From the NCBI GenBank assembly GCA_030248065.1, contig JASAMV010003192.1, positions 28,866 through 92,865 of the forward strand: a DNA stretch of 64,000 nucleotides, in the 5' to 3' direction. The translations under genes and the position numbers were made by a program. Under the pieces are notes generated by a model. It was not told the DNA's origin, did no database searches, and saw nothing but the letters and a program-made list of their open reading frames with translations. Of the stretch, positions 6,000 through 64,000 are shown piece by piece (within the stretch, counting starts at the first letter, position 1; each line of letters starts with the position of its first letter). Source of the stretch: Rhynchonema sp. JSB1_4. Lineage: Eukaryota > Nematoda > Chromadorea > Monhysterida > Xyalidae.

Positions 6000-27108
<21,109 letters not shown>

Positions 27109-29180: not shown

Positions 29181-29921
29181 CAGAGGTCGCAATCGGGCCG
29201 GGCCGCGATCTTGGGCTTTTAGTTCGGGCCGGGCCGGAGATTTGGAGGATCGGGCCTTGCCGGGCCGGGGAAGCTTCTGAATCTGAAGTGACTTATTTTA
29301 CAGAAAGAATAGTAATTTTTTGTCAAAAACACTAAAATTTCTGACGGATTCAGCAAGTGAGTGATCAGTACTTGTCTAGCCAGTGTAGTTCCTGGGGGGA
29401 TTGGGACCCCCCCTAAGGTACACTAATTTCCCCGACCAAGGTACACTAGTACACTAATTTCCCCAATTTTTGCCTAAAATGGCCATTTGGCCAAAATGGG
29501 CATTTTTAGGCCTAAAATGTGTGATTTTCAGGTCAATGTGCTCAAAAGTCGCCAAAATACCCTTTTTATGAAGAATTTTTTCCAAAAAGGGGTAAAAATA
29601 GGTCAAATTTTCTACCTCAAAAAGTGACTTTTTCCTGATTTTGGGTCTTCCCCCCCGGGGAGGTACACTAATTTCGACTCCGAAAAAGTAGGGAGGTACA
29701 CTAATTTCCCCGCCGGACCAGGAACTACACTGTGTCTAGCTGACAACTTTTTTTATTGAAAGCAGTCATTTTTTCACCAAAAAGAAGGTACAGAAAAATC
29801 GCTAAAATTATGACAAAAATCGGGTAAAATCTGACCCAAACAATTCGGCTCGCGTCGGGCCGAGCTTTTGCCACCTCGGGCTGGGCCGGGCTGGCCAAAC
29901 TCGGCCCGATTGCGACCTCTG
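29181..29921. mobile_element. hAT-type MITE, GGGCCGGGCC family (host of a nested copy)
   Basis: Ends CAGAGGTCGCAATCGGGCC and its complement, flanked by ATTCAGAA and CTTCAGAA (7 of 8). CGGGCCGGGCC words recur inside both ends. Interrupted by the element at 29381-29732. A fragment of the same family is at about 36825-36865. Confidence 0.85.
29381..29732. mobile_element. hAT-type MITE, GGTACACTAATTTCCCC family, nested
   Basis: Ends CAGTGTAGTTCCTGG / CCAGGAACTACACTG with a perfect 8-bp duplication TGTCTAGC. The phrase GGTACACTAATTTCCCC occurs two or more times inside each end around the shared core (AAAATGGGCATTTTTAGG ... AAAAAGTGACTTTTT). Confidence 0.95.
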
Positions 29922-30298
29922 CTTCAGAACAACTTTGGTCAAGCGCGAAAACGGACGTAAAGCTTTGCCAACGTGGCTTGTTTTAACGCAGTGGTGTCGT
30001 TGGGAAATCAAAAAGTCAGGATACCGGATACCCAAAATCCAAAATTTTCGGATACCGGATCGGAGCATTTTAGAGGTAAAAATAGGCAATTTTTACGGTT
30101 TTCGGAAAAATTTTAGGGTAGGATACGCCTGGACAGAAAGTCAGGATACCGGATACCCCTGGGTGAAAAAATCAAGATACCGGACACAAGGGGGGTAACC
30201 CCCTTCCCCCCACGATTGGCTATTTCTTCAACCTATCCAAGGCTGATCCTCCGCTCCGCACTTTCGAGGTTTCAGAGTTTTGAGGCTGTTTGTTGTGT

Positions 30299-30364
30299 TA
30301 AGCCTAATCCAAAGCCTAAGTTTAAGCCTAAGCCTAAGCCCAAGTCTAAGCCTAAGCCTAAGCC
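30299..30364 (-). repeat. Interstitial TTAGGC-type hexamer array
   Basis: About eleven imperfect GCCTAA units on the plus strand, i.e. TTAGGC on the minus strand, ending 50 bases from the tRNA-like sequence at 30402. TTAGGC is the telomere repeat of nematodes; here the array could equally be the tail of a SINE. Confidence 0.7.
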
Positions 30365-30416
30365 AAAAAATTTAAAAAAAACGAAAATTGTTTTTTTTCG
30401 CTATCGGGAGTCGAAC

Positions 30417-31103
30417 CAGTGTAGTTCCTGGGGGGGAGGGGGGTCCCCCCCCCTAAGGTACACTAACCGCCGCGACCAAGGTACACTAGTACACTAACCG
30501 CGGCGCCAGGTACACTAACCGCCTCAATTTTTGCCTGAAATAGGCAATTTTAGGCCTAAAATGGGCATTTTTAGGTCTAAAATGGGTGATTTTTAGGTCG
30601 ATGTTGTCAAAAGTCGCCAAAATACCCTTTTTATGGAGAATTTTTTCCAAAAAGGGCCAAAAATCGGTCAAATTTTCTACCTCAAAAAGTGACTTTTTCG
30701 TGAATTTGGGTCTTCCCCCCCCCCTACCGCCCCAGGGAGGTACACTAACCGCCGCACGGAAAAAAGGGGTAGGTATGGGCAATCCATCGGCTCATGGCAC
30801 TTTTTGTACACACAGCGCATGCAGCAGCACACGGCCGCACACGCCTATTTCTAAACAAAATGTACACTTTGAGCGAGTGTCATACTTTGATGACCGCTTT
30901 TTAATTTATCCGGTTTTCATTTGCTGCTTGCCATAACACTTTTCTGCACAGTTGCAAAATTTGGGGATGTTTCAACGGATAACTGCAGAGAATAGATGCA
31001 TTCATTGACGGCAGTAATGCAGCATGCAGCCTGTGTGTGCGAGTGCCATGAGCTGGTGGATTGCCTATACACTAACCGCCGCGCCGGACCAGGAACTACA
31101 CTG
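30417..31103. mobile_element. hAT-type MITE, GGTACACTAACCGCCGCG family, copy 1
   Basis: Ends CAGTGTAGTTCCTGG / CCAGGAACTACACTG with perfect 8-bp duplication AGTCGAAC. The phrase GGTACACTAACCGCCGCG is repeated at both ends around the shared core. Enlarged by a nested TA-type element at 30776-31067. Confidence 0.95.
30776..31067. mobile_element. TA-flanked MITE (TGGGCAATCC ends), copy 1
   Basis: Inverted ends TGGGCAATCCATCGGCTCAT and TAGGCAATCCACCAGCTCAT (complement), flanked by TA. The uninterrupted sister sequence at about 33528-33545 shows the empty site, so the duplication of TA is visible directly. TA duplication suggests a Tc1/mariner-type mechanism. Other copies lie at about 56363-56645 and, with diverged ends, 42751-42975. 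Confidence 0.85.
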
Positions 31104-31339
31104 AGTCGAACCCCCGACCTCTGGTGTTGCAAGCTAAAGCTCTGCCGCTGGGCCAACCTACCGACACAGCCACAGCGCTGAAAGGTACAATACAATCCTA
31201 ATGCGCGCGCAGTGTTACACAATACGGTGTCTGCTTGCTGAAACAGGCAAGCTGCGTGTGTTTGTGTTGGCAGCACAGCACACAACAAGAAACTTGGATG
31301 GTGTGAAGAAATAGTCGTAAATCTTCCCCCCCCCAACGA

Positions 31340-32130
31340 CTAGGGTTAGAGAGATGTCGGGTGTCGGGTGCCTCCAGGTGTCGGGTGCCTCCAAAACCCG
31401 ACACCCGACAGCCGACACCCGACACTTACGGTTCAAAACATCAGTTTTGCCGAGAAAAGAATTTTGAGAGAAAATTTTCTTCGAACCAAATGTTTCCGAA
31501 GACGCAGAATGTGTCATTTTGGTGTTTATTTTCTGTGTAAATACTTGAATTCAGTCACTTGATCCAAAGAATTGCACTAATAGTGCGAAGGAGCAAAAAG
31601 TTGCCTGTTTTTTGTCCAAAAACAGGTGTCGGGTGTCGGGTTTTTTTCAAAAACTAGATGTCGGGTGTAGGGTTAGAGAGATGTCGGGTGTCGGGTGCCA
31701 AAAAAGTGTAGGTGTCGGGTGTCGGGTGCCTCCAGGTGTCGGGTTTTTTGGGACCCGACAGCCGACACCCGACACTTACGGTTCAAAACATCAGTTTTGC
31801 CGAGAAAAGAATTTTGAGAGAAAATTTTCTTCGAACCAAATGTTTCCGAAGACGCAGAATGTGCCATTTTGGTGTTTATTTTCTGTGAAAATACTTGAAT
31901 TCAGTCACTTGATCCAAAGAATTGCACTAATAGTGCGAAGGAGCAAAAAGTTGCCTGTTTTTTGTCCAAAAACAGGTGTCGGGTGTCGGGTTTTTTTCAA
32001 AAACTAGATGTCGGGTGTCGGTTTTTTTGGAACTGTCGGGTGTCGGGTGTCGGCTTTTTTTTTCTCAAATGTCGGGTGTCGGGTATTTTCAGATGTCGGG
32101 TGTCGTCTGTTGGGTGTCGGGTACCCCCCC
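31340..32130. repeat. TGTCGGGTGTCGGGTGCC minisatellite with a 350-bp tandem duplication
   Basis: Words TGTCGGGTGTCGGG alternate with an A/T-rich spacer (CAGTTTTGCCGAGAAAAGAA...). The spacer block starting at 31411 is repeated at 31761. A diverged, inverted relative is at 58560-58925. Confidence 0.8.
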
Positions 32131-32283
32131 CCCCCCGACCTCTAACCCTACCAACGACACCACTGTTTCAACGATTTTAGTCAGTGACCAGACCGTGAGC
32201 AGTCACAAGTATAGTTGCAGGTGGAAAAAACCCGTTTTTTCCTGAAAAAAACGAAAAAAACACGTTTTTTTTCAGAGGCAGTG

Positions 32284-33035
32284 TACCGTAAAAACCTAAA
32301 TACGCCCCCCCCGGAATAGAGCCCACCCCCCAAAAAGGGGTCAGTGAATTAATAGAGCCCCCCTCTAAAGTAGCAGCCCCTATACAGTAGTGTATTTAGA
32401 GCTTGATTGTGCGAATAAATGCGATTACAAGCGAAAAAACATGCTTTCAAACCCCTTTTTAGGAGTTTTTGGGGGTATTTCTGGGAACAATTTTTCAGGT
32501 TTGGGTCAGTGAATTAATTGAGGCCCCCCGGAATAGAGCCACCCCGTTATAGAGCCCCCCAAAATGGGGTCAGTGAATTAATAGAGCCCCCTTCTATTTA
32601 TTCCCTAAAATAGAGCCCCCAAAAATAGAGCCGCCCCCCAAAAAATACAGCCCCCCTAAAAGGGGCCAGTGAAAAAATAGAGCCCCCAAAAATACATCCC
32701 CCTCCCCCAATTTGCAATTCCCCGCTTTGGGGTCGTAAAGTCAATTTCTTGTACAAGACACCTTATGTACAACGTTTGTGGTTGAGTATATGATGACGTA
32801 AAGCCTTTTATAGAAGATTTGCACTGCACCTAAAAACACTCAATAATGACCAGTAACACTCTGACAGAACTCCATTTTAAGGGCATTTTTGGGAACATTT
32901 TTTGAGATTTTGGGCAGCGAAAAAAATAGAGACCCCCCAAAAATAGAGCCCCCAAAATACAGCCCCCCTAAAAGGGGCCAGTGAAAAAATACAGCCCCCC
33001 TTGTATTTTAGATTTTACGGCAGGTTTTTACGGTA
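32284..33035. mobile_element. TA-ended MITE, GAATTAATAGAGCCCCCC family, copy 1
   Basis: Ends TACCGTAAAAACCTAAATAC and its near-complement (GGTTTTTACGGTA). Inside, AATAGAGCCCCCC and GGGGTCAGTGAATTAATAGA words recur many times on both sides of an A/T-rich middle. Other copies: 35067-35458 and 36481-36676. Confidence 0.8.
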
Positions 33036-33178
33036 GTTCCTTGGGGGAGGGGGCCCCCCTCGGGTACGTCTGTTCCCCCTCCATGGTAGGCATGGGGGCA
33101 ATACCGATTTTTTGACCCAAGCCAATACCCAATACCAGGGCCCACCCCCAATACCCAATACCTCAAATGGGACCCAAC

Positions 33179-33569
33179 CAGTGTAGTTCCTGGGGGGGAG
33201 GGGGTCCCCCCTCCTAAGGTACACTAACCGCCGCGACCAAGGTACACTAGTACACTAACCGCCGCGCCAGGTACACTAACCGCCTCAATTTTTGCCTAAA
33301 ATAGGCAATTTTAGGCCTAAAATGGGCATTTTTAGGCCTAAAATGGGTAATTTTTAGGTCAATGTTGTCAAAAGTCGCCAAAATACCCTTTTTATGGAGA
33401 ATTTTTTCCAAAAAGGGCCAAAAATCGGTCAAATTTTCTACCTCAAAAAATGACTTTTTCCTGAATTTGGGTCTCCCCCCCCCCTTCCCCCCCAGGGAGG
33501 TACACTAACCGCCGCACGGAAAAAAGGGGTAGGTACACTAACCGCCGCGCCGGACCAGGAACTACACTG
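33179..33569. mobile_element. hAT-type MITE, GGTACACTAACCGCCGCG family, copy 2
   Basis: Same ends, phrase and core as the element at 30417 but uninterrupted, with a perfect 8-bp duplication GACCCAAC inside a CCAATACC-type minisatellite. Serves as the empty-site reference for the nested TA element at 30776. Confidence 0.95.
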
Positions 33570-33591
33570 GACCCAACCCAATACCCAATAC

Positions 33592-34057
33592 CAGTATAGT
33601 ACTTGGTCAGGGTGTTGACGATAGATAGATTGGGACCCGAAATGTGTTGACGATAGATAGATGACCCAAGTCCGAAATCTGGGGCGGGGGTCGACCCAAA
33701 CTTGTTGACGATAGGTAGATGGTGGGGGGGTCGCCAAAAATCAAGGTATAGTATAGTGTACTAAGTAGGTAATAATGTGTAAATAATAATGAAAATGTAC
33801 TTAGATGTACTAAATCCGCGCGTAGCGCGCGATTTTTTGCCTATTTGGGACAAAAAATACCGATTTTGAGCCATTTTGAGGCAAAAATACCCATTTTGGG
33901 GTCGAAATGTGTTGACGATAGATAGATTGTTCCCAGAATTTGTTGACGATAGATAGATTTGCCCATAAGTGTTGACGATAGATAGATGAAATCAAAAAGT
34001 GTTGACGATAGATAGATGAATTTGGGGGGACCCCCCCACCCCCCAAGTACTACCCTG
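33592..34057. mobile_element. hAT-type MITE, TGTTGACGATAGATAGAT family
   Basis: Ends CAGTATAGTACTTGG and CAAGTACTACCCTG, flanked by CCCAATAC on both sides (inside a repeat of that word, so weaker proof). The phrase TGTTGACGATAGATAGAT occurs seven times, three before and four after the core. A truncated relative with the phrase inverted is at about 62190-62493. Confidence 0.85.
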
Positions 34058-34555
34058 CCCAATACCCAATACTCAGGTTGAGACCCAATACCCAATACCG
34101 ACCCAATACCCAAAATTCCAAACTTTTTTTAAAAAATGGGCCTGTTTGGGGTTTTTGATCGAATACTAAGTAAAATATGACTGAATTTCTCATTCTTTGC
34201 AGCTAAAAAAGCGATTTCAAAGGCTAAAAAATTGAAAATTTTTCACCATTTTGTTAATTCTTCCTAGCCTGCCGTTAGGCTTTTGCGAAAGCATGCATAA
34301 AACTTGAAACTTGAAACCATTTCAGGGCCCCGGAGAAGAAAAATAGGGCAAAACAGGGGTATTGGGTGGCAGTGTAGTTCCTGGTCCGGAGGGGGAGATA
34401 GCGGACCCTCCGTTTTTCGGGGGGGGAATTCCCGAGGGGGGGGGGGAGGAAAAAAAAAAAATCCCATAAAAAAATTCCTGGAAAAGATCACACATTTTGG
34501 TATAAAAATCCAAGGAAAAAAAAAAAAACCCACCCCCCCCACACCCAATACCCAA

Positions 34556-34990
34556 CAGTGTAGGGTCACCTCCTGGAAAGATCCAATCTCGGCCCCCCCC
34601 CCGGGAGGGGGGGGACCCCCCCTCGGGTACGTCTGTTCCCCCTCCGAGGCCCTACCCCTCCCCCACTGTTCCCCCTCCGGGTACGTCTGCTCCCCCAATT
34701 TTTTCCAAAAATGGGAAAATTTAGGCCTAAAATAGGCATTTTTAGGCCAAAAATAGGTAAACTTTAGGTGAAACCTCCAAAAAAACGCCAAAATACCCTT
34801 TTTATAGGGGATTTTTCGCAAAAGAAGGCAAAAATAGTCCAATTTTTCGACCTCAAAAAATGACTTTTTCCGTCCCCCCCCAAATTGGGACTTCCCCCCC
34901 CCCCCTTCCCCCCCAGGTAGGTACGTCTGTTCCCCCTCCGAAAATAGTGGAGGGTACGTCTGTTCCCCCTCCGGACCAGGAACTACACTG
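34556..34990. mobile_element. hAT-type MITE, GGTACGTCTGTTCCCCCTCC family
   Basis: Left end CAGTGTAGGGTCACC, right end CCAGGAACTACACTG, perfect 8-bp duplication ATACCCAA. The phrase GGTACGTCTGTTCCCCCTCC is repeated at both sides of the shared core. Another left end of this style starts at 34370, but its partner end is not evident. Confidence 0.9.
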
Positions 34991-35066
34991 ATACCCAACA
35001 CCGGCACCCAATACCTGGGATTGGGTATTGGGTACCCACTACCAGGTATTGGGTATTGGGTATTGG

Positions 35067-35458
35067 TAACCGTAAAAACCTAAACCCCGCCCCCCCCCCC
35101 CTGATTACAGCCCCCCCCAAAAAGGGGTCAGTGAATTAATAGAGCCCCCCCCTAAGTAACATCCCCTATACAGTAGTGTATTAAGGCGTGATAGTGGTGC
35201 ATAGGTACATTTATGCACGTCTGTTGTTCGTTCAGAGCACATAATATGCCTCTTATTGACGAACAGACACGAATAAATGCAATTACAAGCGAAAAAACAT
35301 CCTTTCAAACCCCTTTTTAGGGGTTTTTGGGGGGTATTTCTGGGAACAATTTTTCAGGTTCGGGTCAGTGAATTAATAGAGGCCCCCCCGGAATAGAGCC
35401 CCCCAAAATGGGGTCAGTGAATTAATAGAGCCCCCCTTCTATTTAGGTTTTTACGGTA
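35067..35458. mobile_element. TA-ended MITE, GAATTAATAGAGCCCCCC family, copy 2
   Basis: TA-ACCGTAAAAACC left end and GGTTTTTACGGTA right end, with the same internal words as the copy at 32284. Confidence 0.8.
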
Positions 35459-35475
35459 TTGCCCCCATGCCTACC

Positions 35476-36362
35476 TACCGTATTGTCGGAAATAGAACCC
35501 CCCCATCAGTGCTGTGGCTACTTTGGCGGGGCGGGTAGGGTACACAGGGGTAAAAAATCGGGGCGGGTAGGGGGGTAGTGTACCTGGGATTTTGGGGGGG
35601 GGGGGGAAACTCCGGTTTGGGGGGGGGGGGAGGGGGGGGAAGATTTTTCGGGGCGGGTAGGGTACAACACAAGTTTTTTCCGGTGCCTGTTTTTATGTAC
35701 TAAAAAGTGCATATATCGCGCGGAGCGCGAGATTTTTTGCACTTTTTAGGGTTTTCGGTCGAAATTTGGGCATTTTTGACCGAAAATGGGCATTTTGGGG
35801 GTAAAAATCGGGGCGGGTAGGGTACCAGGGAGGGGCGGGTAGGGGGGTAGGGTACAAGAGCGGGGCGGGTAGGGGGGTAGCGTACCAGGCCGGGGCGGTA
35901 GGGTACCATTAGGGGGGACCCCCCCCCCCAACCCCCCCCCCCCCCCCCCCAGCCACAGCACTGCCCCCCCATTAATTGAACCCCCCCCCTAAATGGCTCG
36001 AAATCAAAAATAGAACCCCCCCATTAATTGACCCCCCATTAATAGAACCCCAACCCCACCCCCAACCTTCACCGCACCACAGATTAGTGGTACGGTAAGG
36101 CTGTGTTGTTGTGTCAAACGTTGTTTAAGCTTGCGTACACAACAGAATACAGCTTTTTAAGCATAATTGCCGCTATTAAAGTTAGAAAATACCGAAAACA
36201 AGCCATTTTTATGGGCATCAGTAACAACGATTTTTTTCGTCGGGGGGCCAAATGAAAAATATAACCCCCCCCAATAATTGACCCCCCCCATAAATTGAAC
36301 CCCCCCAAAATGACCCCAGTGAAAAAATAGACCCCCCGGGTTCTATTTCCGACAATACGGTA
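35476..36362. mobile_element. TA-ended MITE, AATAGAACCCCCC family (host of a nested hAT copy)
   Basis: Ends TACCGTATTGTCGGAAATAG and complement. AATAGAACCCCCC / AATTGACCCCCC words recur inside. Interrupted at 35517-35963. A lone end occurs at 62036. Confidence 0.8.
35517..35963. mobile_element. hAT-type MITE, GGGGCGGGTAGGGTACC family, nested
   Basis: Ends CAGTGCTGTGGCT / AGCCACAGCACTG. The flanking duplication lies in C runs followed by AT on both sides, so its exact length is ambiguous. The phrase GGGGCGGGTAGGGTAC is repeated inside both ends; the core reads AAAGTGCAAAAAATCTCGCG on one strand. A second partial copy is at about 36382-36830 and a third left end at 61316. Confidence 0.8.
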
Positions 36363-36480
36363 CTCCATGGTACGCCTGCCAGTGCTGTGGCTGGGGGTGG
36401 GGTCCCCCAATGGCGCCCTACCCGCCCCGGCCTGGTGCGCTACCCCCTACCCGCCCCGCTCTGGTACCCTACCTACCCCC

Positions 36481-36676
36481 TACCGTAAAAACCTAAATAG
36501 AAGGGGGGGCTCTATTAACTCACTGACCCCATTTTGGGGGGGCTCTATTACGGGGGGGGGGGCTCTATTCCGGGGGGGGGGGGGCTCTATTAATTCACTG
36601 ACCCCTTTTTGGGGGGGCTGTATTACGGGGGGGGGGCTCTATTCCGGGGGGGGGCTGTATTTAGGTTTTTACGGTA
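36481..36676. mobile_element. TA-ended MITE, GAATTAATAGAGCCCCCC family, copy 3 (short)
   Basis: TACCGTAAAAACCTAAATAG at the left and GGTTTTTACGGTA at the right with only the phrase repeats between, i.e. an internally deleted copy, 196 bp. Confidence 0.85.
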
Positions 36677-38003
36677 CCCGGCTACCCGCCCCGCCCTGGT
36701 ACCCTGCCCGCCCCGATTTTTACCCTCAAAATGCCCATTTTTCGGTCAAAAATGCCCAAATTTCGAGCGAAAACCCTAAAAAGTGCAAAAAAATCTCGCG
36801 CTGCGCGCGATTTTTAGTACATAGTCGGGCCGGGCGGGCCGGGCTGGATCTGGAGGATCCTAATCTCTGGTCGCCATTTCAACGAATTTCAAAATTTTCT
36901 TTCGCAATAGCAGGCGGAGGATCGATAGTGTTCGGTGGTATTGTGGCATGACAGGATGACGTATTGCCCAAGAAAACCACCGCCCACAAAACCGTGGTGG
37001 CCAAAACCGGACCAGGCGCAGTCGTCCCAGGTACAAAAACATGACTCTCACAACTGAACAATGTGACGCATGTGAGGAACAGCTCGCTTCTCGCCGTTCG
37101 AAGCAGCAACAGCCCAGCCTGGTTGATCTTTCACACTATGGGTGATATTTTCGAAACAACTCTTTCTCGAGTGCTGCCAATCTTACTCAAACGAGTGAAA
37201 ACCGTTGTCAAATTTTCGTCGCTGCGATACCAATCGCTGAATGAGTGAAAAATTTGACTCAATAAAGTGGAGCTAGGACGAGAGAGTAGGTCTGAGCTCA
37301 AGAATGAGTGTGAGACCAAAACGGCTTATGTGCAGACATTTTTGCATCACTACCCACGCAACCAACGCGCCCCCCCCACCCCCCCCCCACCCCCCTCCCC
37401 CACCCCCCCCCCCCATCACTTGATGAATCTGGATTATTGTTTGCCGGACACTTCGTGTGGGTTTTTGGTTTGCTTTGAAGTTACCGACACAACACAAAAC
37501 ACAACGCGTAGTATACAACAGAAATATCGAGCAAAGTGAACATATACCGATGTTGGAGCATTATCTCGGCAGTCGGCACATTATACACGTCGTAAATGCG
37601 GGGAATGAAAGCAATAAAAAGGTGTTTGTTGAACCGGGGTTCCAAGCCAGGCCGCGGTTTTGCAAACGTTGTGATGTGTGAACTGAACATACAAGAACGC
37701 CTGCTCGTCATCGTCAGAGGATTTTATTTCTCTTTGTTTTGCTTTTGTTAGACTCCGATTGCCAAGGGAGGCACGACAGAACAACTGGTTCAACGTAACT
37801 ATTGTGCATAGTTCGTGGATTTTCGTTGTTTACGCAAAGCGGTGGTTGTGCTTTTAGTTCGAGGTGTGCAGTTGGGCCCTCAGAGTATGGACTCATTCAA
37901 ACCCAAACTCGTTTTTTCCTCCCGCTTGGTTTTTCTCCAGGCTAAATAATTCCGTTTTTGGCGAAATCCAAAACTAATTTTGATTTTCAGAGCCATTATT
38001 CTT

Positions 38004-39082
38004 ATGACACTCATCAAAATGCCAAAACGACGACGATCGAACCCAGTTGAATGCGCGCAATGCGGTGCGGTACTTGCTGGCGAACGGGAATTGAAAAATC
38101 ACAAACTATTCGTTCATTCTGATATTCGCAACTATCCGTGTCCCGTCGCCGGATGCGAGTATCGCTCCAAATCGATAACGAATCTCAATCAACATCTGCA
38201 TGTGAATTCGCATTCAAACGCACGACCATTCGCGTGCCCGAAATGCGACAAAACGTTCAAATTTCGGCCAACGATGCGTCGGCATGTCAAATTCGTTCAC
38301 TTGAATCGAATGAAAACGATCAAATGTGACCGGTGCGAATTCACGACCAAATTCGATTCCTACCTCCGCAGTCACGTGATCAACATGCACAACAGCAGCA
38401 GCAGCTACGTTTGTGATCAGTGCGGCACGATGCTCAATTCGGCCGATCGGTTGCACGCGCACAAGCGCCACTTTCATTTTGCGATCAAACCAGCAAAAAA
38501 GTTCAAGTGTTCCCACTGCAAATCGGCATTCAAGAGCAGACAAGAATGTTGTGATCACGAGAATGCGCGGCATACGCTCAAACGGTCGCATGTCTGTAGC
38601 GTGGTGCGACTTTCACCAACCTCCGCAATTTGAAGCGACATATGATGGTCCAGCATAGTGCAGCACCGAAAAAGTTTGCATGCACTGATTGCGACAGCCG
38701 TTTCCACTCAAACTACGCGTTGAAACATCATAGCAACAGGGTACACGGCACGTACAAAGGGCAATTTCAGTGTGACAAATGCGAACGAAATTTCGTCGCT
38801 CCATATGAACTGTCAGATCACAAAATCAGGGCGCACAGCGACGTTCGCGCCCACGCGTGCTATGTCTGCGGCAAATGTTTCAAGACAATGTACGATGTCC
38901 ATTTACATGCCGTTATCCATTCCGAAGCGCGTCCACACGAGTGCAAATTGTGCAACAAGGCATACAGACGGCCGTGGGGGCTCGTGAAACATCTCAGAAG
39001 CAAACAGCACATTGACAAAACAACACTGCATTTGTCCAGTGATGAGTTCAGAGCTCAGGCCGGTGCTGGTGATGGCTTATAA
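38004..39082 (+). pseudogene. C2H2 zinc-finger protein, 11 fingers, with an apparent 4-base frameshift
   Basis: Two consecutive frames: 38004-38633 holds fingers 1-6 and the first Cys of finger 7; 38630-39082 continues from the end of finger 7 through finger 11. Fingers follow C-x2-C (finger 2 is C-x4-C)-x12-H-x3-5-H with short linkers, e.g. FACPKCDKTFKFRPTMRRHVKFVH. Just upstream, TTTTGATTTTCAG is a good 3' splice site ending at 37990, 13 bases before the ATG, so a 5' exon or trans-spliced leader is likely; an alternative start MPKRRR is at 38019. At about 38601-38606 the expected second Cys and Gly of finger 7 are missing and the frame shifts by 4 bases (loss of one TGTG from a TG-rich stretch). 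Either a recent inactivation or an assembly/read error. Family: probable DNA-binding transcription factor; no orthologue recognised. Confidence 0.8.
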
Positions 39083-39088
39083 TACAGT

Positions 39089-39366
39089 GGTAGTAGTCGC
39101 ACAATGACTTGTTAGAATTGGTCAAATTTTTTTCCTGAATCGTAAAGCGGGAAAGTGACGGGGCAATGACGTTGCGTTGCGTGATCGCACACAAAGCATG
39201 TAGTATAGAGAATGTTTCAGACCTGCAGCAACGTGGTTGATCTACTAGATTCTTTTTAGATGAGAATGTTTTGTGAGAATCACAAATAGCAGTGGTTAAG
39301 AGTGACTGAACGTGAAAATCAGGATTGATTTGATGAATTCTTATATGGTCATTGTGCGACCAATAG
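39089..39366. mobile_element. MITE with GTCGCACAATGAC ends, copy 1
   Basis: Left TAGTCGCACAATGACTTGTT, right complement TTGGTCGCACAATGACCATA. It starts 7 bases after the zinc-finger stop codon. Better preserved copy at 51170-51570. The remainder to 40087 (39367-39884) shows no gene. Confidence 0.65.
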
Positions 39367-39884
39367 TAGTCGACTCAAGTCGGCAACGCACCCCGAATAC
39401 CATGTATATTATTTTTCGCGCTCATTTGCGGCTGCTTTGAGTTCACGACTCAACATGATCATGTCGACTTGAGTTGTGGCGAATATGAATACAATTATTA
39501 GTGAGTCTGAAGTCTGATGTACTGTATGTTCAACGACCGTGCACAGTTCCGATAATTTTTCTGGTACACCACTCTATCGAAAAGCTGACCCCTGTCAAAT
39601 CGACTGTTTTGTCTTGCTGTAACAACATCACATATTTGAATCGGGCACGTGCCAAAAACCGGACACAACAGAAATGACAACAAATGAACAAATAAGCTGG
39701 CCATTCAGTTGTTGAACAAAATTCAAACTGTGAACAAATAGGTTGATGACAAAACCATTACCCAATAACAACATAATGCATTATAGTGATCCGTTTGTGC
39801 AGAATATAGTATAATGAGCGATATAAAACTTAGTGAACGGCTCGGTACGATCTTGCCTTGGCCACGTGTGATTTAAACAAGATA

Positions 39885-39890
39885 TTTATT
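39885..39890 (-). promoter_or_regulatory. Candidate ERCC3 poly(A) signal
   Basis: AATAAA on the minus strand about 200 nt downstream of the ERCC3 stop codon. Motif and position only. Confidence 0.4.
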
Positions 39891-40087: not shown

Positions 40088-52843
<12,756 letters not shown>

Positions 52844-53638: not shown

Positions 53639-56600
53639 TCATTTACTCGATCCCGGTCCAGCTTCGTTGTTGCCTGTGTTGGCAAGCGGATCGAAATCGG
53701 TCAACAAATCACCAGCCCCAAACGACGCGCTCTCCTCCCCGCCCATCCCGAGTCCGCGCTCAAACGCCAGTCGCATTTCGGACAAGTGCGTCTCAAAATC
53801 GGCCCCATTCGTGTCCGGAATTGCGATCGAGTCGCGCACCACCAACTCATTGTTTGAAGCCGGCTGCCCTGATCCAACAGGTGGACTGTCATTGCCGCTA
53901 AACGGTTCCTGACCGAATGCATCCGTATTGCGCATCGACACCACAGCAGATCCAGTGCCATTCTCATATACTGCGGTTGAAAGATCAGCTGCGGCAGGAG
54001 CAGTTGCCGTCTTCTTTGTCTCATCCGCACGCGGGTCGAATGAATCATCGAATATTTCGTCATCTGTTGTTGCACCACTACTTCCGGTCACAGACTGGGA
54101 CTTCGCCGCTTGCTGCTGCTGCTTGCTATCACATGGTGGCGGTAGACGCACCTGAGAATGAAACATAAAGTTGGTGGCAGCCAATTATTATCGGAGAAAA
54201 ATTGTGTTTTGATTGGGTAGCGCGCCATGAGCAACCACAAGCGACCTTGGTTTGATTCTGCTGCCATGCACATCCGCTTTCGAAACGTATACTTTATAAA
54301 ATTTAGTTTATCAGATTATTGTTACCTTCGGTCGAACCCCATGCAAAATTGGTGTCATGTTGATGAGACGCAAATGTCATTGACATCAGCACTCATACCC
54401 AAAAAACTAAACAGCACATGTTCTTCGTGAGCAGTGAACACACAAAGCGAAATCTATGTTTGTTGGCTGCTGTTAATTTCTTATCAAAACAGGATCTCGT
54501 TTCATTTCGCTTCCACCATATTTAGATCTTGCTACCCAAAAGCAATAAAAAATAAATAAAACAGCAACAAGGTCCAACCAAAAAAAGAACCTACCACAGC
54601 GCCCGGTAGATTCGCCGGTTTCTTCGGTATTGGCGTTGTCGGCAACTCGGGTGGTGTCTCGGTCGGAGGTGTCAGTTTCTGGAATGTTTCCCACACCGCC
54701 TTTGAAACATCTCCAGCTCCTCCGCCACCCCCAGCAGCAGGGGCGTTGCTTAATTGTTGTTGCAAACCGAGTCGTTGTCGAAGACGGGTGTTCTCGTCCT
54801 CTAGTTGTTGCACGCGCTGACGCAGTTGGTACAGCTGCAGTGGAATATCAACATTGGCAGAGTCTTCGAGTCTGGCAATTTGCACAGCGAATCTCTTTTT
54901 CCGAGAAAACGTAAAATTCCCAGAGTAATTTGTCTCACCTACACTGGCAGACGAAAAAAACGTTTTTTTTAAAACAGGTGTTTTTCGGTTTTTTCCGAGA
55001 CCAGAATATTTTTCCGTGGGTGCGTTATCCTGATTTTGACAAAAAATGTAATGCAAACCCGACGAGTTTTTTTAATTTTGGGAAAAGATTGGTTTAAGGA
55101 CGAAAATTGATCGATAAAAAAGCTTGCAAAACACATGTTTCCGTAGAGTTAAAGCGGGAAACCGTATATCTCATGCTTGCTTTTTTACTACGCAGTTAGA
55201 CTGTTTATGTCCAACGGTCACAAAAACAACGATCAAACGAGATAAACCACGTTAAAACTGTCAGAATTTATCTTTGAAAAGTTGCTTTCAGGAACAACGG
55301 CGAGCTTGTGCCGACTTACGCTCACCCTTTTGATCATGAAAGGCAGTGAGACTGAGACAAGAACCAGCTCGCTGACAGATGAAACCTTTGTGAAACATTT
55401 CACACGTGGCTGTTGGCTGACGAGCTGGTTGGATTCCCTACTAAATGTTCTGCCGTTGCCTGATCAAAAGGGGGAGCGTACGTCGGCACAAGCTCGAGTT
55501 TCTTCCCGAAAGCAAATTTAAAAAAAAAATAATTCTCACAATTTAAACGCATTTCATTTTGTTTGAACGATGTTTTTGTGATCACTCATCGTATATAGTC
55601 ACATTTTATTGCGAAAGGCCGGATTCTGAGAGCATGCGATATCCGGTTGCCCGGTTTAAGTACTCTTCGAGAAACAACTCGCAACAGTGTAATGCACAGA
55701 ATCAGTACCGACCAGAAGCCAACCAACTGAACAACAAAAACAACCACTCAATCAAACACCCACCTGCTTCTGCACTTCCAAATCGCGTCCATTATGTTCC
55801 AGGAATTTCCTGTAGGCCAGGTCGAACGCCTCGCCAATCGTCAACGTAATCTCCTCCGCCAATTTATCGCTCAAAAACACGAAACAATCGTGCACATCGA
55901 CGTCGGCACGTTTGGCGATGAACGCGAATACTCGTTTGTCATTCTTGTCGTCCGCGCAGAACGAGATGCGATGCAACGGGTACTTGTACATCACTACCTG
56001 CAACGGAATCGTGTCTTTTTGGACAGTTCTTAGGCACAAACGCACCTAAAATGCAGAAAAGTGCCTGAAATCCCTCAATCATCACCTGAAATTCTAACAT
56101 TTCTGGGTGCAACTTGAAGGCTTGTGAAAAAATCACTGAACAGCATGGGCACTGTGGACGTGTTGCAAAAGTGGCTTATTGTTTTTTGTTTCAGTTTTAC
56201 ACTGTTGATAACGCCTATTTTTTTCTGTCACTGGTAATAGCCACTGCGAAACCGCTTTCGTTAATTCTGGCTCCTGGTTCTATATGCTAGCTGTGAAACA
56301 TTTTTGCAGCATTCTGTGTGAGTTTCGCAAACAAGCACACCGGCATAAACAGCCAGCATGTATGGGCAATCCATCGGCTCATGGCACTTTTTATACACAC
56401 AGAGCATGCAGCAGCACACGCCATTTTCTAAACAAAATGTACACTTTGGGCGAATGTCATACTTTGATGACCACTTTTTAATTGATCTGATTTTCATTTG
56501 CTACTTGCCATAACACTTTTCTGCACTGTTGAAGAATTTGGGGATGTTTCAACGGATAACTGCAGAGAATAGATGCATTCATTGATGGCAGTAATGTAGC

Positions 56601-58490
56601 GTGCAGCCTGTGCATGCGAGTGCCATGAGCTGGCGGATTGCGTATACACGATTTTGTCAAGCTACTTTTGCAACATTGCCTAACATTTTTTTGCATCGAC
56701 AACATGAGTTGTAGCAGTTTAATAAGCGCTGCAAGTCTTGAATGCAGCTCACGTTACGACCGAAGCTGAGCCTAAACCATGATCACTGCTGCTTTTTCTT
56801 CCTTTCCGCCCTTTTTTGTCAGACACTGTTCAGCACACACGAAAAAAACAAGCTAGATTTGAATGAAATACCGTCATCGAATAACAATATTTGTGCGCAC
56901 CTTCGTCTTCGCATCCACCACCGTTAGTCCGTCGACATTGATGTGTATCTCGGTCTTTGGCAGTTTCGCAGCGGCCGTGCCTTGATTCGATCGATTCACC
57001 TGCAACAATGTGTGGGCTAATTCTTTCGTCATCAACGCAAATCGTCAACCCTGGTAGTCAACGCAAGCAGCCGTGAATGAGGGTGAGAAATATACAGATG
57101 GCATTGGGGCTGAGTTGACGATGTGCGTTAACGACATGAATACAAGCCACACGTGTATTAGTGAGGAAAGTTGGATGTGAAAGAGCCCAACGCCTTGAAG
57201 TGCAATTTACTGAAGCACGCCAGGCATCCATCCAATCACTCGAATTTGTATAAAAATTACAATTTCGTTTGTGAACCACAGGAACACACAAACAAACTAC
57301 CGGCACCCTGCTCAAACTGAATCATTCGTTTTATCGCAAGAAAAAATATGCGCGACGTAACCTGCAGACGAAATCGTAGTTTCTGAATCGCTTCACGAAT
57401 CACCTCGACGCCCTTCGATTGTGACACTTCGCATTCACCAAGAAATTTCACCGTGTATTCGACACGACCCAATTGTAGATGCTCGGGTGGGTGCACCTGG
57501 AGAAATGCGGACAGAAAAAATGGCCTGGTGCGATAAGAGAAAACTGGGGTACTCTACTTTTAAGTCAGTTAGTTTTGACGCGTGTGGCTAATACGGGCCA
57601 CCGACACCATGTAAAAGGCAGACTACACCAACACGAGTTCGATTTCGCAGCTGGCGTTGTACTGAAACAATGTGACGTGGCTGCTGATTTGAGAAATGTC
57701 ACACGTTGAAGAATACAAAATGGAGCTTATATTCGTTATGAACACATCAGTGGTGTCGTTGAGAAATCGAAATTTTCCCATACCCAGCCCAATTTTCGGG
57801 AAATTTCCCATACATACCCCCAAAAATCAAAAATTTCCCATACCAGAGGGGGGTTTCTCCAAAAACTCAAAAATTTCCCATACCCGAGGGTGGGGGTTTT
57901 GAAAAAATGACCCCAAAAATCTTCTAAAAGTGCCAAAAATTGGTCTAAAAAGCGCTTAAAACAGAGTTTTCTTGCGGTAGCAAGCGATTTTTGGCATTTT
58001 TGGACGAAAAATGGTCAATTTTGGTGCTTCTCGGGGTCAAAAAGTCATTTCTTAGGGGTGCTTGTTCCAAAAGTGAAAAATTTCCCATACCCCCGGCCGA
58101 TTTCCCATACCCCATACCAGGCGGGGGGTAACCCCCCCCCAACGACACCACTGGAACACATACCACCTTCGAAATCGGGCTCGTGTAGTTTGCCTTTGCA
58201 TCAACAGCGCATTCTTCAACCCGCTTGAATCCAGCTATTTACTGGGAATGCAAGCAAAAACCATGTCTGTCTTGCAGAATGACTGCACTGCACTTTCCGA
58301 ATAAAATCTTTGGTAACAATTTTAAACAGAGACCAACCCATTGTTTGTTGAACGACACGCCAGCATACCGTCCGCCGCCGTCAGTCGTGTAAACAGCAGT
58401 CGAACTGGACGATCCAGTGTGGAGTGAACGTCGCAACGTTTGATTCGCATCCTTCACCCATTCTTTCATCTTAGCTGCCGGCTTGCTCAT
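53639..58490 (-). CDS. GULP1: GULP1 / CED-6: PTB-domain engulfment adaptor
   Basis: CED-6/GULP adaptors bind NPxY tails of engulfment receptors (CED-1/LRP family) and relay the signal for clearing apoptotic cells. Six minus-strand exons, all GT-AG and in frame: 58490-58338, 57496-57362, 56999-56901, 55997-55764, 54894-54595, 54151-53639; 477 residues, longer than human GULP1 (304) and close to worm and fly CED-6. Residues about 50-190 are the PTB domain ([72 protein letters not shown] block reading [22 protein letters not shown]). Then comes a Leu/Gln coiled coil ([22 protein letters not shown]), a Pro/Thr-rich stretch and an acidic tail with DPLANTG. The start [11 protein letters not shown] follows an AG 6 bases upstream. 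The start of exon 5 is my best guess. 52844-53638, the space to ERCC3, holds its 3' UTR and no other gene. Confidence 0.93.
56363..56645. mobile_element. TA-type MITE (TGGGCAATCC ends), copy 2
   Basis: About 90 percent alike to 30776-31067 by eye over its whole length, including ACTTTGATGACC and GGGGATGTTTCAACGG. In the GULP1 intron 55998-56900. Confidence 0.8.
57748..58153. mobile_element. hAT-type MITE, GTATGGGAAATTTTT family, copy 2
   Basis: Ends CAGTGGTGTCGTTGA and CAACGACACCACTG with perfect 8-bp duplication GAACACAT. Inserted into a copy of the foldback repeat seen uninterrupted at 2769-2960 and 47243-47440, which supply the empty site. In the GULP1 intron 57497-58337. Confidence 0.95.
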
Positions 58491-58559
58491 GGTGACGCTG
58501 ATCACGTCGAGAAATACAAACAACGAAAATATAGCAACCTGATTAGGGTCACAGATCTG

Positions 58560-58925
58560 GGGAATACCCGACCGACGCCCGTCAGTCACCCGACATCTGG
58601 AGAAAAAAGTCGACACCCGACAGTTTTGAAAGTATCCAAAAATACCAGACATCGTATTTTTGGAACAAAAAGGCAAGAACTTGCCGTTTTGTCACATCAA
58701 TGCAAATTTTTGGCTCAAGTTACACTGAATTCAATGGTTTTTACGCAAAATCGATTCTGAAAGGCCACACTTTGCGCTTTTGTGAAACATTTGGTTCGAA
58801 AAAAATTTCCTTCGAAAGTCTTTTCCCCGCAAATTGGTGTTTTGAACTCAGCGTTGGATCGCGAAACCCCAGACACGCCCATACTTTTTTGGCGCCCGAC
58901 ACACGACAAACCCCGATGCAAAATA
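58560..58925. repeat. Diverged copy of the GTCGGGTGTCGGG repeat
   Basis: CCCGACGCCCGTCAGTCACC and CGACACCCGACAG words around an A/T-rich block with TTTGTGAAACATTTGGTTCG, similar to 31411-31560 read on the other strand. It lies between GULP1 and ATXN10. The remaining intergenic sequence, 58926-59332, would be ATXN10 3' UTR and shows nothing else. Confidence 0.6.
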
Positions 58926-59332
58926 CAAATCAAAATCGGGCGGTAACATAAATGCCAGTGGAGACACGGCATACGGTTAATTAAACCGGACAAATGCAAA
59001 AGAAAATCGCACGCATGGTTCTGGTTTTATGTTTTAGTTTTACTCAAATTTAAGTCGGCATGATAAATACAAGTGTCGCGAACGATAAATACAATCTCAC
59101 ATACGAAATCATAAAAAACGCCCATTATAATGATAAAAATGCCCAGTTTACGACAAAAGCGGCTTAGTACAGCACTGTCCTGACCTGTTTGTCTCGTGAC
59201 ACATCATCTAGCCAAGCAGCAGCATCCCACGCGGAAAAACGCAAAGCCGACAAAATATCACACAGAAGCCAAGGACAACAAATGTGGGATCGGATAGACA
59301 GGGACAGAAGAACCAAATAATTCACAGTGCAA

Positions 59333-60935
59333 TCACAGTTGCATGGCATTCATCTGCTCTGCCACCACATTCACATTATTATCGACCAGCTCCAACGCAG
59401 TCGCGGATGCACCCGAACATGCCTGCAGTCGCTGTTGATTGATGGCGCAATTATTCGACAGATTTTTCAGCGCCGCAATTGCCCACTGCCGAAGAAAGGG
59501 CGACTCAAAATCGAGCGGTCGACGAACGCAGCCGAAGAACAACAACTGCACGGCATTCCTGTCTCCAGCACGCAGCTGACACGCCACGCACGCGAACACA
59601 CTGTTGCCGATGTAGCGCACACACGCGCGCAACCACGCGTACAGCCACTCGTCACGCGCGTGCTCGCTGCTGCTGGCCAGCAATAGTTGCAGAGTGGATA
59701 TCACAACGCCGAGTAGGTCAATGCCGTTGGCATTCTTGGCCGGACACAAACGATCGCGGTAGACATCCAACTGAGCCGCGTCGGCTAGACACTCGAGCAC
59801 GCTCAGTTGGACGCGAGAGTCGACGTCGGATCTGGGACCGATTGTTGAGAATAGCAGACCGTGACGCAGTAGATGCGCCGATAGATGGTCGAAATTGAGC
59901 ATTGGAATGGGTGGCTGGCCATATGCGCAGTCACACTCGTCCGTCAGCATTGATTTGAGCACCTGAATAGAAAAAGCACGAAATTTGAATTCGGATTTGA
60001 TTGAAAAAAACGCATAAATCTAATCAAAACCCATATGGGCACAAACAATTCATAAACAAAAACAGTAGGACTCCGCCGCGTTCCGGATCTTGACAAAGGG
60101 CTGGTGCGAAACGGTAGTGATCTGATTGTGATACCGGCGGGCTAAGGGCACAAAACCAGTTTCATCACTGATAACGAGACGATACGCTCAATGATTGGTG
60201 TGTTTGTCTGAGCCTGTTCCGCGTATGAGCACAAATCAGAAAACTAACAACACAAACAAAATAATCGTACTAAAACCGCGATCCCGTCGCGGCGACTGAC
60301 CTCCAAGAATATCAGTTGTCTGTCGGGCGTGAACTGTTTGATCGGACAATCAACCGTTTTGACGACGAACTGCATAATCCACTGATGATAATCACCGGCA
60401 TCGGTTCGTTGCTGTGGTGATTGGGAATGTCGAATCACATCCAAACAAATATTGTTGAGATCAGACAGATGCGGCCACACAGCTAGTGAGGACATCTGAC
60501 CAGGCTGTGCATCTGCAATCAGCGGATTTTCACTTCAAAGCTTCACGTGTGAAAACGGCAAAATGTAAATCGCACGTGAGATTTCCTTATTCTCCACAAA
60601 TTAAGCAAGGTGAAAAAATCCTGCGTAGATGTTGCGCCTAACAATCGCAAACAAAAATCCATACCTGCATTCAACAGACGAACACTGCTGTACAACAGCC
60701 AAGCGCCGTATTCTCGCAGCTTGTCGTCATTGTGCGCAATCAGACTCAACCAGAATGACGACTGCAACGACGAGCATTCGACCACAACGACAACAGCAGT
60801 GGATGTGCTGGGCGCGAATGAATCAGTCGCTGCTGACGCCACCATCCACAATCGATCCACACAAGTCGGAATGGCGCACACCAGATTGGCCAACAGTTGG
60901 ACGGCAACGCGCGCGCACACCAATGCTGCGTCTGT
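59333..60935 (-). CDS. ATXN10: ATXN10: ataxin-10, C-terminal part (5' exons not found in window)
   Basis: Ataxin-10 is a cytoplasmic ARM-like repeat protein needed for neuronal survival and cell division in animals. Three minus-strand exons: 60935-60665, 60512-60301, 59962-59333, about 370 residues; the human protein has 475. The last exon carries the diagnostic ataxin-10 C-terminal domain: a strongly conserved stretch equivalent to the family's IGNLC...NPF..EWAI.AIRNL, here YIGNSVFACVACQ ... DFESPFLRQWAIAALKNLSNNC ... INQQRLQ. The upstream exons are Leu-rich helices (VQLLANLVCAIP, LREYGAWLLYSSVRLL). The usual Cys/Lys-rich loop after IGN is altered and the tail VVAEQMNAMQL is short. No further exon is recognisable up to 64000, so the 5' end lies beyond the window or behind a long repeat-filled intron. 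Confidence 0.85.
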
Positions 60936-61315
60936 CTGCAAACAAATCACACAACCATTTTCAACTTCATGCTGGATTATTAGAAAAATTGTCCTCCCCC
61001 TTCTCCTCAACCAAGTGATTGGTCCACCAGACCAGACCGGAGTCGGCGACCGGGACGAGACTTTCGGCTTCGATTTTTCGGAGGATCTATTTTTTCAGTG
61101 GGAGTGGGACCAGATCTATTTTTTTTTCACCGGAAACGAAACGGAAACCTTTCCTTTTTTATTCCCGTTTCTTCCTGGAAAAAATTTTCTTTGTCTCTCT
61201 CCTACCAACGCTGGTTAGTGTTTTTTTACACTGAGGAATTTCGGAGGCAGAAACAAGTTCCTGGGGGAGGGGTCTCCCCTCGGGCGGGTACGCCTGTTCC
61301 CCCTCCATGCTTGCC

Positions 61316-61829
61316 CAGTGCTGTGTCTACTTTGGAGGGCGCGGGCGGGTAGGGTACATAGGTGGAAAAAACCGGGGCGGGTAGGGGGTAGCAGTGTAGT
61401 TCCTGGTCCGGCGCGGCGGTTAGTGTGCCTACCCCTTTTTTCCGAGCGGCGGCTAGTGCACCTCCCTAGGGGGAAGGGGGGAAGACCCAAATTCAGGAAA
61501 AAGTCACTTTTTGAGGTGGAAAATTTGACCGAGTTTTGGCCCTTTTTAGAAAAAATTCTCCATGAAAAGGGTATTTTGGCGACTTTTGACAACATCGACC
61601 TAAAAATCACCCATTTTATGCCTAAAAATGCCCATTTTAGGCTTAAAGTGCCTATTTTAGGCAAAAATGGAGGCGGTTAGTGTACCTGGCGCGGCGGTTA
61701 GTGTACTAGTGTACCCGCATGGCGCGGCAACCTACCTACCTACTGTACCTAGGGAGGCTCCCCCCCACTCCCCCCAGCTACACCAGTTGGGGGACCCCCC
61801 CCCCCCCCCCCCACCCATCCACAGCACTG
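61316..61829. mobile_element. Mosaic of two hAT-type MITEs
   Basis: Outer ends CAGTGCTGTG and CACAGCACTG. Within it CAGTGTAGTTCCTGG starts at 61392 with the GGTACACTAACCGCCGCG phrase inverted, the shared core, and a worn right end near 61785. No outer target duplication, so order of events unclear. Confidence 0.6.
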
Positions 61830-62772
61830 ATTCCATCCAACATTCAAAAAATTAAAATGTTGCTGCATATTGCCACAAACTATCAATTTGCGTGCCGTTG
61901 TCGCTGTTTCGGTTCTATGCTGTTACTGTTTTGGTGTCACTAACACCCGTGTCGTTGGTCCCTGTGGTCGTGTTGCGAAATTGTTGTTCGATTGCCTAGG
62001 TTAGTCAATTTTATTCATGTTCGTGTACCGTATTGTCGGAAATAGAACCCCCCATTAGGGCGGGCTTAGGTTGAATCCGGAAATATTTCCGGAACACGCA
62101 TTGTTTTTGAAAAGAAAGCCTAACTCACCCTGAAATCAGTAACATAATATCGTTCCTTAACCACTGGGTCCCGAGTATCGAAGGAGTGCCCATTTTTTAG
62201 GCATAAATGAGTGATTTTTAGGTCAATATCGTCAAAAATCGCCAAATACCCTTTTTATTGAGTTTTTTTCCAAAAAGGGGCAAAAATGGGTCAAATTTTC
62301 GACCTCAAAAAATGACTTTTCTCCAATTTTGGGTCCTCCCCCCTTCCCCCCAGACCCCCCCCACCATCTATCTATCGTCAACAAGTTTGGGTCGACCCCC
62401 CTCCAGATTTCGGACTTGGGTCATCTATCTATCGTCAACACATTTCGGGTCCCAATCTATCTATCGTCAACACCCTGACCAAGTACTACACTGGGGGGGG
62501 GGGTTGAGTACCTACCTCTCACAACTCCAAATCATACCTCTCACAAGCAATTTTATACCTTTTTAAGGCAAAAATCGGTGTTTTTCGACCTTATTTTCCC
62601 AAAAATCGCGCGCGCAAACCCACCCATAATACCTGTTTTTAGGCGATTTTCGGCGAAAATTTGGAAAAAGTACTATTATACCTCATTTTTTGGCCAAAAT
62701 TGTATCACGAAAACTGTGTTTTTTCGCCTTTTTGGGTGACCAAAATCATACCTCTCACGCACCCGGTCCCAA

Positions 62773-63472
62773 CTATGGGTGGGCACAATACCCAATACCC
62801 AATACCAATATCACCCAATACCAATACCAATACCAGTGTTGATATTGGTATTGGGTCTAATTTTGGTATTGGGTATTGGTATTGAAGCTGGCCTGGTATT
62901 GGTATTGGGTGTTGGTATTGGGTTTGCCCAGGTATTGGGTCAAAACCAATACCCAATACTAATCCAGAAAAACCCAATACCAAACCAATACCAAACCCAA
63001 TACCTGACTCAAAACCCAATACCAAACCAATACCAAACCCAGCCAATACCAACCCAATACCAGACCAAAAACCCAATACCAAACCAATACTAAGACCAAT
63101 ACCCAATACCAACACCAACCCAATACCCAATACTCAATACCAATACCAACCCAATACCAAACCCAATACCAGGCACTTCAGTAGTATTGATCTATGGGTG
63201 GGCACAATACCCAATACCCAATACCAATACCACCCAATACCAATACCAATACCAGTGCTTGGTATTGGTATTGGGTCTAATTCTGGTATTGGGTATTGGG
63301 TATTGGTATTGAAGCTGGCCTGGTATTGGTATTGGGTATTGGTATTGGGTTTGCCCATGTATTGGGTCAAAACCAATACCCAATACTAATCCAGAAAAAC
63401 CCAATACCAAACCAATACCAAACCCAATACCTGACACAAAACCCAATACCAAACCAATACCAAACCCAATAC
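62773..63472. repeat. CCAATACC minisatellite with a 419-bp direct duplication
   Basis: Starts TATGGGTGGGCACAATACCC at 62773 and again at about 63192. Within each copy the words read CCAATACC, then GGTATTGG, then CCAATACC again. Frames predicted here (IGIGLVLVLG-type) are artefacts of the repeat. The same words continue after 63904. Confidence 0.9.
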
Positions 63473-63903
63473 CAGTGTAGTGGCTGGGGGGGGATGGGGG
63501 GGATTCCCCCCCCCTAAGGAGTAGGTACCTTGCAACCACCCCTTGGGGGGGATGGGGGGGAAGGGTAGGTACCTTGCAACCACCCCGGAGGGTACCTTGC
63601 AACCACCAATTTGTGGTTTTTATAGGCAAAAATGGGTGTTTTTCGAGCTCAAAACCCCAAAAATCGCGCGCTCCGCGCGCAAACCTCCATATAACAGCTA
63701 TTTTGGGCAAATTTTCGGCCAAAATGCAAAAAAGTACCATTTTTCGGCCAATTTTGCAGAAAAAAGCATGCAAAAAACACCCTTTTTTCTGACCCCAGGG
63801 GTACCTTGCAACCTTCTGGAGCCTGGGTCGGGGGGTACCTTGCAACCACCTGGATCCATCCCCCCCAAGGGTACCTTGCAACCATCTGCCTGCCATTACA
63901 CTG
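63473..63903. mobile_element. hAT-type MITE, GGTACCTTGCAACCACC family
   Basis: Ends CAGTGTAGTGGCTGG and GCCATTACACTG, flanked by CCCAATAC on both sides (inside a minisatellite of that word). The phrase GGTACCTTGCAACCACC occurs three times on each side of an A/T-rich core containing AAAAATCGCGCGCTCCGCGC. Confidence 0.85.
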
Positions 63904-64000
63904 CCCAATACCAACCCAATACCAGACCAAAAACCCAATACCAAACCAATACTAAGACCAATACCCAATACCAATACCAACCCAATATCCAATACCAATA

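Follow-up and report, generated by a model that had tools for sequence, protein, structure and literature searches.

Alternative subterminal words in register on shared frames: short, probably hAT-type transposons of the nematode Rhynchonema sp. JSB1_4

Three reports show that enzymes of the hAT superfamily read short subterminal repeats and that their specificity varies widely (PMC3143072, PMC10368747, PMC8097297). In Anopheles gambiae, a short motif that recurs at both ends of Herves is critical and also sufficient for binding by its transposase (PMC3143072), and the BED domains of Hermes bind subterminal repeats (PMC10368747). The BED/Hermes-type domains of hAT proteins, considered together with the hAT-derived CGG-binding proteins (CGGBP), have diverse specificities that match subterminal regions (PMC8097297). 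In Acropora corals, the CMITE families of miniature inverted-repeat transposable elements (MITEs) are more conserved between families in their internal region than at their ends (PMC2872659). The DNA analysed here is a window of 64,000 nucleotides from Rhynchonema sp. JSB1_4 (GCA_030248065.1, contig JASAMV010003192.1, positions 28,866 to 92,865; C1949:28866-92865 in our numbering), and it holds many short elements with inverted CAGTG-type ends and 8-bp target duplications. As in Herves, a short motif is repeated at both ends of each element, but here alternative motifs are found on one frame, whereas Herves has one motif per element and no alternatives on one frame in the part of the report available (PMC3143072). 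As in Hermes, the putative sites are clustered, subterminal and asymmetrically arranged, and those of Hermes are read by a zinc-finger domain; however, the latter are 4-bp sites of one autonomous element (PMC10368747), whereas words of 15-20 bp are carried here by short copies, in one direction throughout. The wide diversification of hAT binding preferences finds an echo in one of our words (B, see below), which has CGGCGG on its minus strand, although that study concerns proteins and not the switching of sites in element lineages (PMC8097297). Finally, an interior that is better conserved than the ends is shared with the CMITEs, but their piggyBac-type CC[C/T]T ends are not found on our elements, which end in CAGTG with 8-bp duplications, and the accessible part of that report makes no mention of repeated subterminal words switched in register (PMC2872659). 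An earlier note, made from the letters of this DNA alone, had named no described counterpart of the pattern. Searches of an open-access library, judged by titles and abstract openings and with most subscription papers lying outside it, brought up no report recognised as in-register word switching, but the parts of the pattern have the precedents given above.

One frame, called chassis 1, carries most of the argument. Its end CAGTGTAGTTCCTGG is present in 4,872 forward and 4,831 reverse exact copies genome-wide (9,703 in total in the 204-Mb assembly), against 1 + 1 for the same string written backwards, and a scan of the window for boundaries and target-site duplications (TSDs) gave 10 matches versus 2 in a mirror control. 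Alignments reveal a constant plan: the first end, its G-run and its C-run precede three word slots, and the AT-rich core (~180 bases) beyond them is followed by a C-run, two further word slots and the second end, a typical copy being about 340-420 bp long. These elements are short, abundant and bounded by terminal inverted repeats and target duplications, as MITEs are, and their 8-bp duplications and CA-type ends are those of hAT elements; from their size and sequence, they are probably gene-less. Among 64 chassis-1 candidates drawn from the window and from fetched loci, 41 have a TSD with at most one mismatch and 61 contain the core, which is also found in 35/35 elements of one set, a figure biased by loci sampled through the core itself. 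Since these candidates mix window, end-sampled, core-sampled and word-selected copies, the class shares reported below are not genome shares. The core AAAGTCGCCAAAATACCC has exact matches in the window only at 29545, 30610, 33371 and 61569 (minus strand), all of them in chassis-1 copies, and is diverged in the copy at 34556.

Four common words occupy the same five slots of chassis 1, namely A (GGTACACTAATTTCCCC), B (GGTACACTAACCGCCGCG), I (GGTACACTATCTCCCCC) and C (GGTACGTCTGTTCCCCC). Word I had been missed by the earlier note; it has no exact copy in the window and is common elsewhere. A more diverged form, J (GGTACACTTAATTCC), was seen at two loci (L110 and L112), and a further search of right ends, restricted to words in which one selected position is a purine, gave 54 places that are mostly small variants of known words; a few are unusual, GGTTCTTTATGACAG at C4456 among them. 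The eight phrases listed previously (A to H) are all present in the window and repeated within elements, a random 15-mer being expected there ~1.2e-4 times, although the E phrase has a single exact copy, at 35810, and otherwise occurs as variants. Measured against our own list of elements, all copies lie inside except three of D (62366-62455), which belong to a broken chimera. The proposal of one core beneath different phrases stands for A, B and C but fails for five of the eight phrases, D to H, whose intact copies lack the chassis-1 core. Likewise, the 8-bp duplications were recovered at most listed elements but not at those starting at 35508, 48113 and 43412 (Table 1). On another contig, four A elements follow one another at intervals of 435-444 bp and do not differ in their listed core starts, which makes them an apparent tandem array of whole elements (G000:C318:14889-16436).

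Within an element, the words are uniform. From the 64 candidates, 48 were kept after a hand-picked exclusion of 15 (nested composites, copies without words or core, or members of other families) and of X038, and 47 of them could be assigned to A, B, I or C. In these 47 elements, 185 of the 186 words with at most two mismatches match the class of their own element; this tests uniformity and not independent labels, since each label was itself set by a majority vote among these words. Nested composites were already excluded at that point. The sole off-class word, found in X054, resembles an I word carrying an insertion. Similarly, 36 of the 39 elements with good duplications and at least three words are single-class, the others being one nested composite and two copies with one weak extra match.

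Between the closest relatives of different classes, word change far exceeds core change. In four such pairs, the words differ at 24/75, 19/60, 16/60 and 27/69 positions (27-39%) versus 6/70, 7/178, 3/69 and 11/182 for the cores (4-9%; Fisher p 4.8e-4 to 1.1e-9), the cores of pairs with X046 having been truncated at 69-70 columns by the anchor used, with the remainder counted as 'other' together with spacers and G/C runs. Four pairs within classes show 2/60, 2/74, 0/75 and 0/83 differences in words (0-3%) and 0/69, 5/69, 10/182 and 9/182 in cores. The median core distance between A and I (0.086) equals that within A (0.086), the other between-class medians being 0.097 (A-B) and 0.088 (B-I). Class C stands apart, its cores lying at 0.18-0.20 from all others, and is itself diverse (0.162). 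Mismatches to the class consensus, measured in A, B and I, amount for words and core, respectively, to 8/433 (1.9%) and 59/999 (5.9%) in A and to 15/961 (1.6%) and 100/2339 (4.3%) in B, and the constraint is clearly stronger on words than on core in these two of the three classes.

At a probability of roughly 55%, we favour the view that chassis-1 elements are hAT-type MITEs whose subterminal transposase-binding words were switched along with transposase specificity and filtered by selection for matching ends. They would be non-autonomous cut-and-paste elements, the words acting as clustered subterminal sites for the DNA-binding domain of the mobilising transposase and each word class representing a lineage adapted to one specificity. 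Upon a shift in specificity, multiplication would have been limited to elements whose slots, at both ends, all contained the new word; through this filter the words would seem to have been replaced together, whereas the core, which is not read, would have drifted. The earlier note had also raised a copying mechanism that distributes a word over an element; gene conversion or gap repair between the direct word repeats could act in this way on a mutated word. The single orientation of the words is what repeated copying would leave: they are direct repeats across both ends in all seven window elements counted, with no inverted copy except one in the E element. Among 18 other ends fetched from the first 100 of the listed generic-end matches (see below), 14 have no inverted copy of their top 9-mer, two have two each in stretches running past the element, and two lack a repeated 9-mer. 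A trace of copying might also be seen in X021, where slots 2 and 4 have a private variant in common. However, it is the sole variant shared between slots among 81 mismatches to the slot consensus (47 elements), against a mean of 2.7 under a crude random-placement null; slot-shared private variants are not in excess, and there is therefore no sign of copying within elements. Moreover, slot 2 retains a truncated double word in both A and B. Intra-element copying is for these reasons highly doubtful, and uniformity probably stems from selection for matching ends.

The putative assignment to hAT draws on other elements of the same genome. The hAT dimerisation domain PF05699 gave 330 candidates genome-wide, 150 of which were scored, and a repeat script applied to 50 of the scored loci found ATCCCG-type arrays at 39 (two of them partly) and ACCGAC arrays at six; the remaining five display neither array among the at most four repeats shown per locus, which does not equal absence. 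At both of their ends, elements with hAT transposase C-termini thus bear word arrays, whose copies mostly run the same way, some being inverted; read by eye, one of them has ends CAGTGTTCGAACG and duplication GTCGTGGC (L052), and another ends TAGGGATCGG and duplication CACCCGAC (L042). By analogy, the chassis-1 words are likely to be transposase sites and their enzyme is presumably a hAT transposase. A different superfamily with 8-bp duplications could be at work instead, such as the P elements, in which THAP domains likewise recognise repeated sites; in Galileo, tandem repeats contain these sites (PMC3688188). The GC-richness of chassis-1 duplications (61% in 30 exact ones vs a window GC mostly of 0.42-0.51) would suit such an enzyme. 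The P-type transposase domain PF21787 had no match in the genome, a weak argument since control genomes likewise gave no signal, and hAT domains are abundant in this genome. An origin in another superfamily of this kind is in our opinion improbable. A candidate for an autonomous element (L109/L129) was set aside: judged by ORF lists and patterns, it resembles a J-like copy about 1.4 kb long, with its end near L129:973, and no target duplication was found.

The histories of cores and words agree mostly, but not completely. On a core tree built from a 153-column block with 51 rows (47 elements plus four hybrids, the J copy being excluded), the word label changes 6 times compared with a mean of 25 after shuffling; the words were therefore mostly inherited and not freely swapped. 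Class C forms one clade (support 95/92) and A and I interleave. Forcing A or I to be monophyletic was weakly rejected (AU p 0.0445 and 0.0339), and monophyly of B was not (0.368). Complete agreement of the two trees, named beforehand as the mark of simple divergence, is not what we observed, although the label mostly follows the core tree. A preceding core tree of 48 rows had mixed the classes, partly via misaligned deletion variants, and was superseded by the shorter block.

The interleaving of A and I is also what an exchange of end modules would produce. According to this explanation, the word classes are old and their ends slowly diverged, and recombination or template switching, often at the C-run, keeps attaching these ends to cores drawn from one shared pool, which makes the cores look alike. 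Hybrids do exist. Genome-wide exact patterns gave five places with B words on the left and A words on the right, three of which are clear, and one with the reverse order that proved to be two abutting elements. The first clear hybrid (L154) has three B words on the left, a mostly B core up to the core end, two A words on the right and a perfect TSD; the second (L150) follows the same plan with a TSD that does not match, both breakpoints lying between core end and word 4; the third (L153) is a mosaic with a perfect TSD. The other two are a short copy without TSD (L152) and one without right end (L151). Two chimeras in the window (at 61.4-61.8 kb and 62.2-62.5 kb) and a C-class copy that by eye unites both C core types (X037) point the same way. 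The junction of the second chimera, used as an exact pattern, has a single match genome-wide, at the window site itself, and D words on a chassis-1 core were rejected as a class. However, hybrids remain few next to 176 pure A-A places (apparent tandem copies included), and the word label tracks the core tree as described. End exchange by recombination is a real contributor alongside specificity switching and also its main rival, but it is rather unlikely to account for the pattern as a whole.

Several observations weigh against specificity switching. Each class also has its own spacer, an unrepeated stretch, between the two right words, and therefore whole end modules differ between classes and the words are not alone in diverging, which speaks for end-module exchange. 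Cores lie closer together within B (0.061) and within I (0.059) than between classes (0.088-0.097), which indicates some core separation between classes. In class I, words and core deviate equally from their consensus (34/971 and 72/2081, 3.5% each), and no graded series of intermediates between words was found. The 50 PF05699 loci, examined without a systematic search for ends enclosing a gene, tied no transposase to chassis 1. Finally, I words flank an ACCGAC element on both sides in L044, which is presumably a case of nesting.

Switching of words is not restricted to chassis 1. A generic end, CAGTGNNGTNNYTGGGGGG, occurs 3,870 + 3,925 times genome-wide (control 1 + 2), chassis-1 ends being included in the count. 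Two words, G (GGTATGGGAAATTTTT) and K (GGTATCC...), occur on the frame with end CAGTGGTGTCGTTGG and are in register in five aligned copies; this is a second case of in-register word change, with a more diverged core, so that the replacement of a phrase at every slot, as previously proposed for one core, now holds in two frames. A further family, N, has end CAGTGGTGTAGCTGG and word GGTACAGTAGGTAGGTTGCCGCCCC. When the G-run end is placed on the left, 10 of 12 word classes (A, B, I, C, J, E, F, G, K and N) start with GGTA in most slots; H does so in its first copy only, and D does not. This rule was noted before N was read, the K arrays being already visible, and it does not hold for the ATCCCG and ACCGAC arrays of the other hAT elements. 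Common descent is suggested by the shared ends, and GGTA may consequently be a constant portion of the site that was inherited. A more tentative extension is a modular recognition code, in which frames with ends CAGTGNNGTNNYTGG would carry words made of a constant GGTA anchor and a variable tail, specificity being switched repeatedly by tail change in every slot at once, while recombination at neighbouring G/C runs would also exchange whole end modules. These frames bear on how a transposon and its enzyme jointly change a recognition code, at several sites and two ends at once. With thousands of copies, at least two frames with alternative in-register words and a few hybrids in one genome, it could become possible to retrace step by step how specificity is switched and to put the result to the test.

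Table 1. Word-bearing elements and chimeras of the window (positions counted from its first base; TSD, target-site duplication).
Feature	Positions	Strand	TSD and remarks
Chassis 1, word A (GGTACACTAATTTCCCC)	29381..29732	+	TSD TGTCTAGC, exact; nested in CAGAGGTCGC element 29181-29921
Chassis 1, word B (GGTACACTAACCGCCGCG)	30417..31103	+	TSD AGTCGAAC, exact; nested insertion ~30776-31067 between right words
Chassis 1, word B, five words	33179..33569	+	TSD GACCCAAC, exact
Chassis 1, word C (GGTACGTCTGTTCCCCCTCC), degenerate left end	34556..34990	+	TSD ATACCCAA, by eye
Truncated chassis-1 right end, I-type word	34370..34440	-	By eye
D element, word TGTTGACGATAGATAGAT on plus strand, seven copies	33592..34057	-	TSD CCCAATAC, exact; core differs from chassis-1 core
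E element, word GGTACCCTACCCGCCCC in G-run-left polarity	35508..35964	-	No clean TSD (poly-C flank)
F element, word GGTACCTTGCAACCACC, three copies per side	63473..63903	+	TSD CCCAATAC, exact
G element of chassis 2, word GGTATGGGAAATTTTT	57748..58153	-	TSD GAACACAT, exact
G element	48113..48513	+	No TSD (by eye); right boundary by eye
H element, word TAGCTTTCTTGCTCC	10830..11194	+	TSD 7/8
H element, last base of end missing	43412..43749	+	No TSD (by eye)
Chimera: N-type left end (word GGTACAGTAGGTAGG...), then B words, chassis-1 core and B right end	61392..61786	-	Boundaries by eye
Broken chimera: right-end module of D type with three D words, fused at C-run to C-like chassis-1 core	62190..62493	-	Boundaries by eye

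Other features of the window surround these elements. The insertion at 30776-31067 took place at a TA inside the right words of its B host and has long imperfect inverted ends of GGCAATCCAYCRGCTCATGGCAC type; it resembles a MITE of Tc1/mariner type. The sequence around the same B element (30407-30417 and 31104-31160) resembles the T-arm of a tRNA or a tRNA-derived repeat (GAGTCGAACCC...), and in the window ARAGORN reported no tRNA and Rfam no match. An ORF at 37980-38633 is C2H2 zinc-finger-like by eye, and another at 59333-59962, again by eye, presumably resembles ataxin-10; a protein search with the latter returned 319 candidates, none at E 0.001 or better. The element that encloses the A copy (29181-29921) has CAGAGGTCGCAATCGGGC ends, GGGCCGGGCC arrays and a TSD of 7/8. 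A GCCTAA/TTAGGC-like stretch lies at 30298-30364, and the same hexamer forms an array beside a hAT fragment in L149. At 31341-32150, an element with TAGGGTTAG ends, TSD CCAACGAC and GTGTCGGGT arrays resembles the TAGGGATCGG family, whose member L042 combines a hAT C-terminus with ACCGAC arrays, and a further word change between the two is possible. Dense (GGTATTG)n / (CAATACC)n arrays cover 62786-64000 and 33090-34100 and are matched by some chassis-1 duplications (GGTATTGG, CCAATACC); they possibly represent another word family of GGTA type.

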